DNA from: Paenarthrobacter sp. GOM3
GTDB taxonomy: Bacteria > Actinomycetota > Actinomycetes > Actinomycetales > Micrococcaceae
Length of the DNA: 64,000 nucleotides
NCBI RefSeq assembly: GCF_018215265.2
Contig: NZ_CP136562.1
Location: 2,790,001 to 2,854,000 of the forward strand
Direction: 5' to 3'
Within the stretch, counting starts at the first letter, position 1. Each line of letters starts with the position of its first letter. The position numbers and the translations under genes are program-made. Shown here in pieces: positions 21,270 through 61,559 of this stretch. Below the pieces are notes generated by a model, which was given only the letters and a program-made list of their open reading frames with translations, was not told the origin of the DNA and ran no database searches.

Positions 21270-21514
21270 GGATCTAGCCTACCGGGGGCCCGCAAAGTCG
21301 CGGAATTGAGGCTGCCGTATGTGGATACTTTCGACACAGCCTTGGCACAGGTTCGACTGGCGGCCGGCACAGACTGAACCATTAGGCTCATTTCAACGTT
21401 ATGAACACGTAAGGGGACGGCCCGAGCGGCCTCCCCGGACAAGCAAGGACTTTGGAGTCATTGCCCCTTATGCATACCGGTCCAGTCGAACGTTCAGTTG
21501 AAACGAGTAGAACC

Positions 21515-21991
21515 ATGACTACGCCACTCCGGAAGAGCCTCTACGTTGGATTTGCCGGCCTCTCCATCATCGGTACGGCCGCGGCCTGCGCCCCCAAAGC
21601 CGAGTCACCGTCCGTGGAGACTCCCGCTACCCAGAACGGCGGCCAGGTCTCAACCACCGCTCCGTCGTCACAGGCTGCCGCAGCCGGCGGGCAGTCCAGC
21701 TACAAGGACGGCACCTATAGCGCGGATGGAACCTATACCTCCCCGAACGGCCAGGAAACGGTTGGCGTAGAGCTGACGCTGGCTGCGGACAAGGTCACTG
21801 CGGTCAACATCACAACGCATCCCTCAAATCCGAACACCAAGAAGTTCCAAGGCGAATTTGCCAGTGGCATCGCGGGCCAGATTGTCGGCAAGGACATCGA
21901 TGAACTGAACGTCTCCAAGGTGGCTGGTTCGTCCCTGACCTCCGGCGGCTTCAACGAAGCCGTGGAACAGATCAAGTCCCAGGCCAAGTAG
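21515..21991 (+). CDS. FMN-binding domain protein, exported, putatively flavinylated
   Basis: This small redox carrier has 158 residues. The N-terminus (MTTPLRKSLYVGFAGLSIIG then TAAAC) is a hydrophobic export signal ending in a weak lipobox, with Cys25 as candidate lipid anchor. A Ser/Thr/Ala linker to about residue 62 leads into an FMN-bind domain (YKDGTYSADGTYTSPNG, VELTLAADKVTAVNI). The sequence AGSSLTS (137-143) sits where such domains carry the [ST]GA[ST] motif that ApbE modifies with FMN through a phosphoester bond, so Ser140 is the candidate acceptor. The next gene is apbE. An earlier ATG at 21452 is in frame, but it adds charged residues before the signal. Confidence 0.82.
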   Translation: MTTPLRKSLYVGFAGLSIIGTAAACAPKAESPSVETPATQNGGQVSTTAPSSQAAAAGGQSSYKDGTYSADGTYTSPNGQETVGVELTLAADKVTAVNITTHPSNPNTKKFQGEFASGIAGQIVGKDIDELNVSKVAGSSLTSGGFNEAVEQIKSQAK

Positions 21992-21996
21992 CAGCC

Positions 21997-22869
21997 ATGC
22001 CGCACCCAGGCTGGAGCCTTTTCGGCTTCGAGGGGATAGGTACCCAGTGGGAAATTTCGACGCCGGACGCCCTGGCCGCCGGGGTCCGGAACCAATTGCT
22101 TGACACAGTTTCCGCTTACGACGAAGTGTGGTCCCGGTTCCGGCCGGACTCGCTGGTGTCCAGCCTGTCCCGCAGCCCTGGGCGCATCACGCTTCCTGAT
22201 TACGCACGTGGCTTGCACAGGGTCTATTCGGCCCTGTACCGGCTCAGTGATGGAAGGATGACCCCGCTCATCGGGAGCAGCCTTGAGCGGCTCGGCTACG
22301 ACGCCGGTTACACCTTGGCAACCTCGGGCAGCCCGCAGGCCCCACCCCGGTGGGAAGGCACCCTGGAGTGGACAGGCCGGGAACTCATGGTCACCAAACC
22401 AGTGGTCCTCGACGTCGGCGCCGCGGGGAAGGGCCAGTTGGTGGATCTCCTGGGGGACGTCCTGCAGGCTTCCGGCCATACCGATTTCCTTGTGGACGGC
22501 AGCGGCGACATGCTGCATGCCGGTACGCATCCGGTCATCGTTGCGTTGGAGCATCCCTATAACCCGAAGCAGGCCATTGGCACCGTGGAACTGGCCAACT
22601 CCGCGTTGTGCGCCTCGGCATCCAACAGACGCGCCTGGGGTGATGGGCTGCATCATGTATTGGATGGCGCCACTGGCAGGCCCATCGAGACCACTGTTGC
22701 GACGTGGACCATGGCTGCGAGCGCCTTGGAGGCGGATGCGCTGGCCACGGCATTGTTCATGATGGATCCGGGGCCTTTGGAGGACGAGTTTGAGTTCTCG
22801 TGGCTCAAGGTGTCATCGGCGGGTGCTGCCACGTATTCGGCGGTATTTGAGGGGAGACTGTTTTCATGA
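21997..22869 (+). CDS. apbE: FAD:protein FMN transferase (ApbE family)
   Basis: ApbE enzymes move FMN from FAD to a Ser/Thr of target proteins, with Mg2+. The product has 290 residues. Family features are EVWSRFRPDSLVSSLS (47-59), the core LDVGAAGKGQLVDLL (138-152), VDGSGDMLHAG (167-176), HHVLDGATGRPI and the late ADALATALF metal/nucleotide segment. Its substrate is presumably the FMN-binding protein 5 bp upstream. No signal peptide is seen, unlike most ApbE proteins, which work outside the membrane. It overlaps the next gene by 4 bp. Confidence 0.92.
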   Translation: MPHPGWSLFGFEGIGTQWEISTPDALAAGVRNQLLDTVSAYDEVWSRFRPDSLVSSLSRSPGRITLPDYARGLHRVYSALYRLSDGRMTPLIGSSLERLGYDAGYTLATSGSPQAPPRWEGTLEWTGRELMVTKPVVLDVGAAGKGQLVDLLGDVLQASGHTDFLVDGSGDMLHAGTHPVIVALEHPYNPKQAIGTVELANSALCASASNRRAWGDGLHHVLDGATGRPIETTVATWTMAASALEADALATALFMMDPGPLEDEFEFSWLKVSSAGAATYSAVFEGRLFS

Positions 22870-24368
22870 TTGCCGCTAAGTCCCGACTGGATACCTGGTT
22901 GGGCCGCTTCACCATGTACCGCTTGATTCTCTGGGTCCTTGGCATCCTGGTTGCCTACAGTATGGTCCTGAACGTGCTGGGTTGGCTGACGTTCGGCATC
23001 CCGGAGATGCTGGTGCACCTGGTCCTCTGCGTTGGCCTGACGTACTTGTCCAACCGCCTGCTGGCCTTGTTGTTCCGTGTCAGGCCGCACTCGGAGTCCT
23101 CGCTCATCACAGGGCTTCTGCTGTACTTCCTGTTCCGGCCGGCGTTCGGGGCAACTGACATGGCCGGGGTGGCGCTGGCCTGCGTGTTGGCGAGCGTTTC
23201 CAAGTACGCGCTGGCTTTCCGTGGCCGGCACATCTTCAACCCGGCCGCGGCCGGTGCTTTCCTGACTGGCCTGACGGGCCTGAACATCGCGACCTGGTGG
23301 GCAGCGACTCCGGCGATGCTCTGGCTCCTGGTGCCCGGGGTGCTGGTTGTCCTGTACCGCACCCGGAAGATGCTCATGGCCACGGTGTTCCTGGTAGCCG
23401 CCACCGGGATCATCACCACTGAACTCCTGAGCCGCGGCATGACGTTCGGACAGGCCCTGTGGCAGCCCCTGGCTCAGCGTCCCTTGCTGTTTTTTGTGGG
23501 ATTCATGCTTTCGGAGCCACTCACCCTCCCTCCCCGACGCTGGCAGCAGTTGGCGCTTGCCGCCGTCGTGGGTGTTGTCTTTGCTGTCCCCTACAACCTC
23601 GGTTTCGTTGCCAACTCCCCGGAACTGGCGTTGCTGCTTGGCAACCTCATCGCGTTCTTCCTGGGCCAGCGGGGCGGTGTCGAACTGGTCTTCAAGGGTT
23701 CGCGTGCTTTGACGCCGGGGAGCACGGAGTTCAGGTTCGAACCTCAGCGGCCTGTCAGGTTCGCCGCAGGCCAGTTCATGGAATTGAACCTGCCGCATTC
23801 CGGCTCCGATGGGAAGGGTCGTCGCCGGGTCTTCAGCATGACCAACCCGCCGGGCGCGGCGGAGGTGACGTTCGGCGTCGGCACGGCTGAGCCGTTGTCC
23901 ACAGCCAAAAGGGCATTGTTGGCGCTTAGTCCCGGAGATACCGTCTCAGCGACGGCGGTGGGTGGTGACTTCCTCCTCCCGCACGACGCCGGCAAACCAG
24001 TGCTGCTGGTGGCGGCAGGGATCGGGATCACGCCGTTCCTGTCGCAGCTTGCGTCCGATGCGGGACAGCGGGACACGGTGGTGCTGTACCTCGCCAAAAG
24101 CAGCGCCGAACTGGCCGGAACCAGCCGGCTGGAAGCCTCGGGGGCGAAAGTGATTGCCCGGCTCGCGGACGGTTCCACTCCCCCGGAATTCATGCACGAC
24201 GCCGGAACGTCACGGATCGATGCAGGGCGCCTGAAGGAGCTGGTGCCGGATATCGACGAACGGGAGGTGTTTGTCTCCGGTTCGCCCTCAAGCGTGGACT
24301 CGCTGCGGGCGGCCGCCCGCGGTGCAGGTGCCCGACGCGTTCATGTGGACTCATTCGCGGGGTACTGA
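22866..24368 (+). CDS. NqrB/RnfD-like membrane domain fused to ferredoxin reductase-like domain
   Basis: This 500-residue fusion has an N-terminal half (about 15-265) with eight to ten hydrophobic helices. It carries RnfD/NqrB-like signatures: SSLITGLLLYFLFRP, GRHIFNPAAAGAFLTG and FFVGFMLSEPLTLPP. From about residue 275 a flavoprotein reductase domain follows, with FAD motif RRRVFS (319-324), NAD(P)-loop AAGIGITPF (383-391) and the C-terminal FAGY typical of ferredoxin/flavohaemoglobin reductases. Inference: electrons pass from cytosolic NAD(P)H through the flavin domain across the membrane to the exported FMN protein. It is the third gene of the cassette and overlaps apbE by 4 bp. Confidence 0.85.
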   Translation: MIAAKSRLDTWLGRFTMYRLILWVLGILVAYSMVLNVLGWLTFGIPEMLVHLVLCVGLTYLSNRLLALLFRVRPHSESSLITGLLLYFLFRPAFGATDMAGVALACVLASVSKYALAFRGRHIFNPAAAGAFLTGLTGLNIATWWAATPAMLWLLVPGVLVVLYRTRKMLMATVFLVAATGIITTELLSRGMTFGQALWQPLAQRPLLFFVGFMLSEPLTLPPRRWQQLALAAVVGVVFAVPYNLGFVANSPELALLLGNLIAFFLGQRGGVELVFKGSRALTPGSTEFRFEPQRPVRFAAGQFMELNLPHSGSDGKGRRRVFSMTNPPGAAEVTFGVGTAEPLSTAKRALLALSPGDTVSATAVGGDFLLPHDAGKPVLLVAAGIGITPFLSQLASDAGQRDTVVLYLAKSSAELAGTSRLEASGAKVIARLADGSTPPEFMHDAGTSRIDAGRLKELVPDIDEREVFVSGSPSSVDSLRAAARGAGARRVHVDSFAGY

Positions 24369-24464: not shown

Positions 24465-24537
24465 GCCCTCGTAGCTCAGGGGATAGAGCGTCTGCCTCCG
24501 GAGCAGAAGGCCGTAGGTTCGAATCCTATCGAGGGCA
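24465..24537 (+). tRNA. tRNA-Arg (anticodon CCG)
   Basis: This 73-nt cloverleaf has acceptor arms GCCCTCG and CGAGGGC, D-loop GCTCAGGGGATAGAGC, anticodon loop CTCCGGA (anticodon CCG, reading CGG), and T-arm GTTCGAATCC. The discriminator is A and CCA is not encoded. A strong intrinsic terminator follows within 6 bp. Confidence 0.97.
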
Positions 24538-24542
24538 CATCG

Positions 24543-36913: not shown

Positions 36914-37381
36914 ATGCCACACGGCACCAGTTCCACCACGACAGGCCCGGCTACGCCGGCCTCCAGCGGTGTGAAGGAGCAGCGGGTCACCAAGCAACGC
37001 TTGGCTGTCAGCGCTGCCCTGGACGAATTGGACGACTTTGTCAGCACCCAGGAGCTGTACAGGCTGATGCAAAACAAGGGCATTTCAGTGTCCCTTGCCA
37101 CCGCATACCGCATCCTCCAGTCCCTGGCTGATGACGGACTGATCGATGTCCTGCGCAACGGTGAAGGCGAGGCGGTCTACCGTCGTTGCGCTGTCACGGG
37201 TCACCACCACCACCTGCTGTGCCGCAACTGTGGCAAAGCGGTCGAGGTGGAGGCCCCCGCCGTCGAGACCTGGGCTGCCCGCACTGCCGCGGAGCACGGC
37301 TTCACCGAGGTTGCGCACACGGTTGAAATCTTCGGGCTCTGCCCGGAGTGCACTGCGAAGAAAGCCGCCGGAAAGCTCTAA
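36914..37381 (+). CDS. zur: Fur-family regulator, probably zinc-responsive (Zur)
   Basis: The product has 155 residues. The winged helix reads STQELYRLMQNKGISVSLAT then AYRILQSLADDGLID. The metal region HHHHLLCRNCGKAVEV and the C-terminal FGLCPECTAKK supply two CxxC pairs for the structural zinc site. Lying tail-to-tail with a zinc-type ABC transporter argues for Zur rather than Fur or PerR. ATG at 36914 has GGAAGTGAG upstream; a much longer open frame to 36452 is a shadow of the MBL gene. It overlaps znuB by 4 bp at the 3' end. Confidence 0.88.
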   Translation: MPHGTSSTTTGPATPASSGVKEQRVTKQRLAVSAALDELDDFVSTQELYRLMQNKGISVSLATAYRILQSLADDGLIDVLRNGEGEAVYRRCAVTGHHHHLLCRNCGKAVEVEAPAVETWAARTAAEHGFTEVAHTVEIFGLCPECTAKKAAGKL

Positions 37382-61188: not shown

Positions 61189-61193
61189 AGGGG

Positions 61194-61559
61194 TGGAGAT
61201 GGGGGGAATTGAACCCCCGTCCGATGTCGTTTTGTCAGGGCTTCTCCGGGCGCAGTTTGCGTCGGATTTTCTCGGCCCCAGCCATCCTGCAAACAGGTAG
61301 CTGATCCGGGCCCAGTCATCTAAGAGTCCCGTTTACCTCAATGACGAAGGCAAACAGTAGTGGCTATCTAAATGACGCCAGGATCCGGGGCGATAGCAAC
61401 CCCGGGCTGACGGACTGTCTTACTGCTTAGGCAGCGAGAGCGAAGTCAGTGCGCTTAGATTCGGCACTTATTGGTTTGCAGACAGCGTTTACGAGATAAT
61501 TCTGCATCCTCGGCCCGCTTCACCTGTCGCGACTAACATCGTCGAAACCGATCATCCCC
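61194..61559 (-). ncRNA. ssrA: tmRNA (SsrA)
   Basis: Trans-translation RNA of 366 nt. The 5' end GGGGATG pairs with the 3' CATCTCC to make the tRNA-like acceptor stem, and the T-arm reads GGGTTCAATTCCCCCC-like sequence near the 3' end. The conserved GGTTTCGACGATG lies near the 5' end. The tag frame at 61465-61427 encodes AESKRTDFALAA and stop. CCA is not encoded. smpB lies next upstream. Confidence 0.95.

Follow-up and report, generated by a model that had tools for sequence, protein, structure and literature searches.

In Paenarthrobacter sp. GOM3, three tightly packed genes encode a predicted exported FMN-binding lipoprotein, an ApbE-type FMN transferase and a fusion of an NqrB/RnfD-like membrane domain with an NAD(P)H reductase domain; the transferase lacks a signal peptide. 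The cassette is a member of the already described NQR/RNF-like class, and its interest lies in the topology of flavinylation and in the link to a regulator. A further-reaching reading, with a probability of roughly 55%, is that ApbE has lost its signal throughout the taxonomic class of this bacterium, that FMN is attached to the lipoprotein precursor in the cytosol before the product is exported, and that the conduit is governed by its own OmpR-type two-component system within an envelope regulon. The cassette would be a compact three-gene version of the NQR/RNF-like systems in soil bacteria, equipped with a predicted switch. Positions given without a contig refer to the window, the 64,000-nucleotide stretch of contig NZ_CP136562.1 that was analyzed.

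All three genes lie on the forward strand. The FMN_bind lipoprotein (158 aa, 21515..21991) has its lipobox cysteine, Cys25, at 21587-21589 and the predicted FMN-bearing residue, Ser140, at 21932-21934. It is followed by ApbE (290 aa, 21997..22869; PF02424 E-value 4.1e-35, with 13 solved ApbE sequences matching at E ≤ 0.01) and by the fusion (500 aa, 22866..24368), whose NqrB/RnfD-like membrane domain covers approximately residues 1-267 (22866-23666) and whose FAD/NAD(P)H-type reductase domain covers approximately residues 270-500 (23673-24365). The packing described in the earlier note, a 5-bp gap and a 4-bp overlap, was confirmed, and no NqrD/E, RnfA/E or other NQR/RNF subunit was found within the operon. 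A tRNA-Arg (ccg) gene lies immediately 3' of the operon at 24465-24538, and a tmRNA gene at 61192-61559.

Of 80 named loci, 79 have the order FMN_bind, apbE, fusion, and the one exception lies near a contig end. Among 40 fetched loci the order is kept in 39: 14/14 inside the genus and 25/26 outside it, the latter being all 26 non-genus matches of a membrane-domain profile search. The named loci were 80 kept from the stretches of the named collection that encode a relative (at least 581); their titles give Arthrobacter, Paenarthrobacter or Pseudarthrobacter in 79 cases and a Micrococcaceae bacterium in one. Among the matches listed, the closest relative was Paenarthrobacter sp. AR 02 (95% identity). 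At E < 1e-180, 31 of 37 same-genus genomes gave a match, counting that of the organism itself, and the 22 other genomes of the order from the same draw gave none; in the profile search, 29 of the 394 genomes from the taxonomic class matched at E ≤ 0.001. The weakly matching L085 (E 2.3e-7) contains no cassette gene at all, and in two loci (L077, L090) about 2.6 kb separate the FMN_bind gene from apbE. In L081 (G193:C16) the fusion frame is interrupted, and those of apbE and the FMN_bind gene are intact.

The fusion joins an RnfD-like fold and an NqrF-like fold in a single chain (HHalign, VIA-align). VIA-align names RnfD, and Foldseek did not name it among the 50 matches listed. In a fold comparison of the FMN_bind protein, NqrC (7.8) was outscored by unrelated folds, namely a lipoate ligase domain (9.5), CO dehydrogenase (8.8) and IscU (8.6). 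Each of the 118 cassette partners found has a lipobox downstream of a hydrophobic region, and the serine site [AS]GSSLT[SA] is kept in every one. The interpretation in the earlier note is partly supported. Its domain assignments, its choice of Ser140 and its idea of a single polypeptide taking NAD(P)H electrons over the membrane agree with homology, with the model and with a published proposal; that reading had overlooked the missing signal of ApbE, which requires a different place for flavinylation, and the upstream operator.

The published class comprises 127 NQR/RNF-like clusters, mainly from Actinobacteria and the candidate phyla radiation, for which one-way flow from NAD(P)H was proposed (PMC8238504, 2021); the protein pair was later modeled, and the membrane domain was reported without the covalent-flavin threonine (PMC11334425, 2024). 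In both papers the class rests on computation, and the same conduit as here is already proposed (PMC8238504, PMC11334425). A new kind of system was rejected as an interpretation, since the class is in print (PMC8238504, PMC11334425). The cassette shares with it an exported FMN_bind subunit (signal predicted), an NqrB/RnfD-like membrane domain fused to a C-terminal NqrF-like NAD-binding reductase domain, a flavinylation cluster and a mainly actinobacterial distribution. In contrast, the window fusion falls under the Pfam cut-offs that define the 127 clusters: PF03116 gave 15.4 and 13.3 bits against a cut-off of 27.7, and PF00175 was absent from its matches at E ≤ 1. A same-genus relative (G002) reached 28.8 bits for PF03116, in-frame neighbors included. 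Homology of the window fusion to the class is evident from the other shared features. The published criteria would miss this fusion, and that may explain the low number of clusters counted. The signal-less ApbE, the serine-type [AS]GSSLT site and the operator/regulator link do not appear in the published passages on the class that were considered here.

Canonical Na+-NQR and RNF share with the window operon a membrane domain like RnfD, a reductase like NqrF and an FMN_bind domain as in NqrC/RnfG. The window operon differs in forming a single path, with no quinone or ferredoxin branch seen within it. Similarly, the MsrQ-like flavinylation system (PMC8238504) has an NAD(P)H-side reductase domain, a membrane domain, an FMN_bind protein and ApbE, but its membrane domain is of the ferric-reductase type, whereas that of the window is of the NqrB/RnfD type. 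A second flavinylation cassette lies elsewhere in the same genome (G000:C1:4029719-4032448; L034:4720-7449). It encodes a ferric-reductase-like membrane flavoprotein, an FMN_bind protein with GGATVTS and an ApbE without a signal-like N-terminus, and it resembles the published MsrQ-like system.

The absence of a signal was consistent across the cassette ApbEs, export signals being assessed by hydrophobicity and regular expressions. The window ApbE has a single in-frame start ahead of its core, 8 residues before FxFEGIGT. None of the 119 cassette ApbEs from 120 loci (L085 has no apbE) showed a hydrophobic stretch in a possible N-terminal extension, including the 18 with a start more than 20 residues before the core or with none counted, and none of the 117 assessable ones had a signal-like extension. 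In these 117 the nearest start was 3 to 22 residues ahead of the core (12 residues in 86); the two without a counted start codon were L084 and L172, the latter near a contig end. By one and the same script, a signal-bearing look was assigned to 0 of 30 ApbEs from the taxonomic class, taken as the best-scoring loci and not as a random draw. For Rnf-bearing genomes that belong to the phylum but to other classes, the figure was 27 of 30 (the loci obtained from 33 matches listed). The three control misses were a short open stretch (L253), a match whose start falls within the domain (L276) and the edge of a contig (L273).

An extracytosolic ApbE, usual though not universal, appears to be lacking here, judging from the N-termini. 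Most ApbEs seem to be secreted, and the cytosolic ones named have cytosolic substrates (review, PMC12052999), while work on a multi-flavin protein of Streptomyces takes the transferases to be extracellular (PMC10339131). By these precedents the lipoprotein would be flavinylated after export, with ApbE leaving without a classical signal or another transferase acting outside; the partner's lipoprotein signal, mostly without an RR motif, is consistent with that order. We consider it unlikely, given that no assessable cassette ApbE has a signal-like N-terminus and that the cassette ApbE is the sole one found in 12 of 21 chosen cassette genomes, the nine second ApbEs being signal-less (eight) or truncated (one). 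FMN is most likely joined to the lipoprotein before export, because ApbE would work in the cytosol. A transferase inside with its substrate outside would contradict the placing of bacterial flavin transferases outside (PMC10339131), and it raises the pointed question of whether a chain carrying covalent FMN is able to leave the cytosol, and through which export route. Tat export was discarded as a simple answer, an RRx(hydrophobic)(hydrophobic) motif being present in just 7 of 118 partners, with the RK variant in 76. Among the titles listed on ApbE or flavinylation, drawn largely from openly accessible journals, none dealt with a signal-less ApbE and an exported substrate. The second ApbE that looks truncated (L304; G010:C1 near 4097602) is preceded by residues resembling a ferric-reductase-like protein, and the two genes look as if merged by a deletion.

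The cassette probably encodes a two-subunit, NQR/RNF-like conduit that takes electrons from NAD(P)H across the membrane to an extracytosolic flavin, together with a dedicated maturase. On the cytosolic side, the FAD domain of the fusion would oxidize NAD(P)H and pass electrons to a flavin expected in the membrane domain, and from there to an FMN bound by a phosphoester to Ser140 on the outer face, which would hand them to a terminal acceptor; this path is the most likely one, the list of its parts being what the analysis shows. An assimilatory iron reductase seems an improbable alternative for the whole: a VIT1 iron transporter accompanies six published NQR/RNF-like clusters (PMC8238504), yet none of 20 scanned neighbor proteins (167 called) was an iron transporter, and a DtxR-type box, by an assumed consensus, occurred in 0 of 80 promoters. 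In the same scan of 20 neighbors, directed at the acceptor, each family was confined to one or two loci. The redox enzymes found were amine-oxidase-like flavoproteins (L086, L089), an alcohol dehydrogenase (L078) and a proline dehydrogenase (L081). The similarity of the C-terminal half to soluble flavin and ferredoxin reductases would also suit a fusion that feeds soluble or free flavin without membrane crossing, the lipoprotein being a separate activity. This is very unlikely given an RnfD-like domain in the same chain beside apbE and the FMN_bind gene in 39/40 and 79/80 loci. A conduit with two covalent FMNs, the other on Thr148 of the fusion as in NqrB/RnfD, is likewise very unlikely. HHalign pairs Ala147-Thr148 with the AT of RnfD's ATPL, Thr148 is invariant in 45/45 Arthrobacter-group sequences, and 21 of 25 relatives have a hydroxyl residue in that column (Thr 16, Ser 5), unlike the class as published; on the loss of this threonine the present data are thus less clear than the published account. 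However, the aligned pair is an island flanked by gaps, the Asp and S/T-G context of the RnfD flavin motif is absent around it, four relatives have Asn (2) or Ala (2), a cytosolic ApbE would need to act ahead of membrane insertion, and the flavin site is reported lost in these subunits (PMC11334425).

Upstream of the operon, on the forward strand, lies a candidate operator and promoter (21335..21388). CACAG repeats start at 21335, 21346 and 21368 (spacing 11 and 22), followed by TGAACC (21375-21380) and a -10-like TAGGCT (21383-21388). The general order is CACAG repeats at 11-bp phase, then TGAACC, then a -10-like TA[CG]GCT. The arrangement TGAACC..[CG]GT[TC] occurs in 75 of 80 promoters, and a stricter pattern in 74. 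CA[CT]AG pairs at 11, 22 or 33 bp were present in 42 of 79 named loci and missing from 37, versus 0.2 expected from shuffles, and four off-phase spacing sets gave 1 to 3 loci. The three-repeat pattern CACAGN6CACAGN6-17CACAG has a single occurrence in the 4.46-Mb genome. Ten assumed box patterns (DtxR, Rex, Zur, LexA, MntR, CRP and others) were rejected, each occurring in at most 1 of 80 promoters, about as in shuffles.

The genome contains ten copies of the shorter CACAGN6CACAG, against 5 of the reversed control. Three of the sites fall within 5 kb. Of these, one directly precedes a glycosyltransferase-2 gene and another the gene for an OmpR-type response regulator, which is followed by a histidine kinase (L336:6526-8766, about G000:C1:746525-748765). 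We searched for this regulator in ten genomes of one genus of another family and in one genome of the window's family (G346). In 10/10 of the former, a copy with 60-63% identity is located 1.5-3.2 kb past the fusion gene. It is the best match in nine, whereas in G240 it ranks second by a margin of 2 bits. Scores are 308-319 bits for the cassette-linked copies versus 215-224 for the next paralogues, and a histidine kinase adjoins the cassette-linked copy in 3/3 loci scanned. In G346 the regulator is 82% identical, yet away from the cassette. The phased motif is present in the regulator promoters of all ten other-family genomes and of the window genome itself, and in the cassette promoters of four of the ten and of the window (5/11). 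Spacings of 12/23/34 are also present in 8 of 11 regulator promoters because the repeats run 11-12-11. Since the regulator is near the cassette in one family and the operator is shared in another, the same regulator is indicated; judged from these patterns, transcription of the operon is probably switched by an OmpR-type two-component system whose genes lie at a distance of about 2 Mb, presumably through binding of its regulator at the candidate operator. Its sensor kinase offers a way to the physiological signal of the conduit. MtrA was rejected as the regulator: its mycobacterial motif GTCACAgcg, as quoted in the literature, was found at three mismatches, with 43 genome matches versus 44 for the reversed control, hence without enrichment. 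Two of these matches led to another OmpR-type regulator.

At least three of the CACAGN6CACAG sites look like chance occurrences: one within a peptidase-like gene or at its border, one opposite a Fur-like gene and one in what we take to be a DnaA-box-like sequence. The second of these is an exact match at 37217-37232 (minus strand), probably fortuitous because its opposite strand reads as what we assume is a Fur-type metal-binding stretch. Further sites lie 5' of an acyltransferase-3 gene, a small protein and an exported dioxygenase-like protein (PF00775; L358, G000:C1 near 4410006). The last carries SRRRTLGVF, presumably a Tat-like signal, and may be either a redox partner or another member of this envelope regulon.
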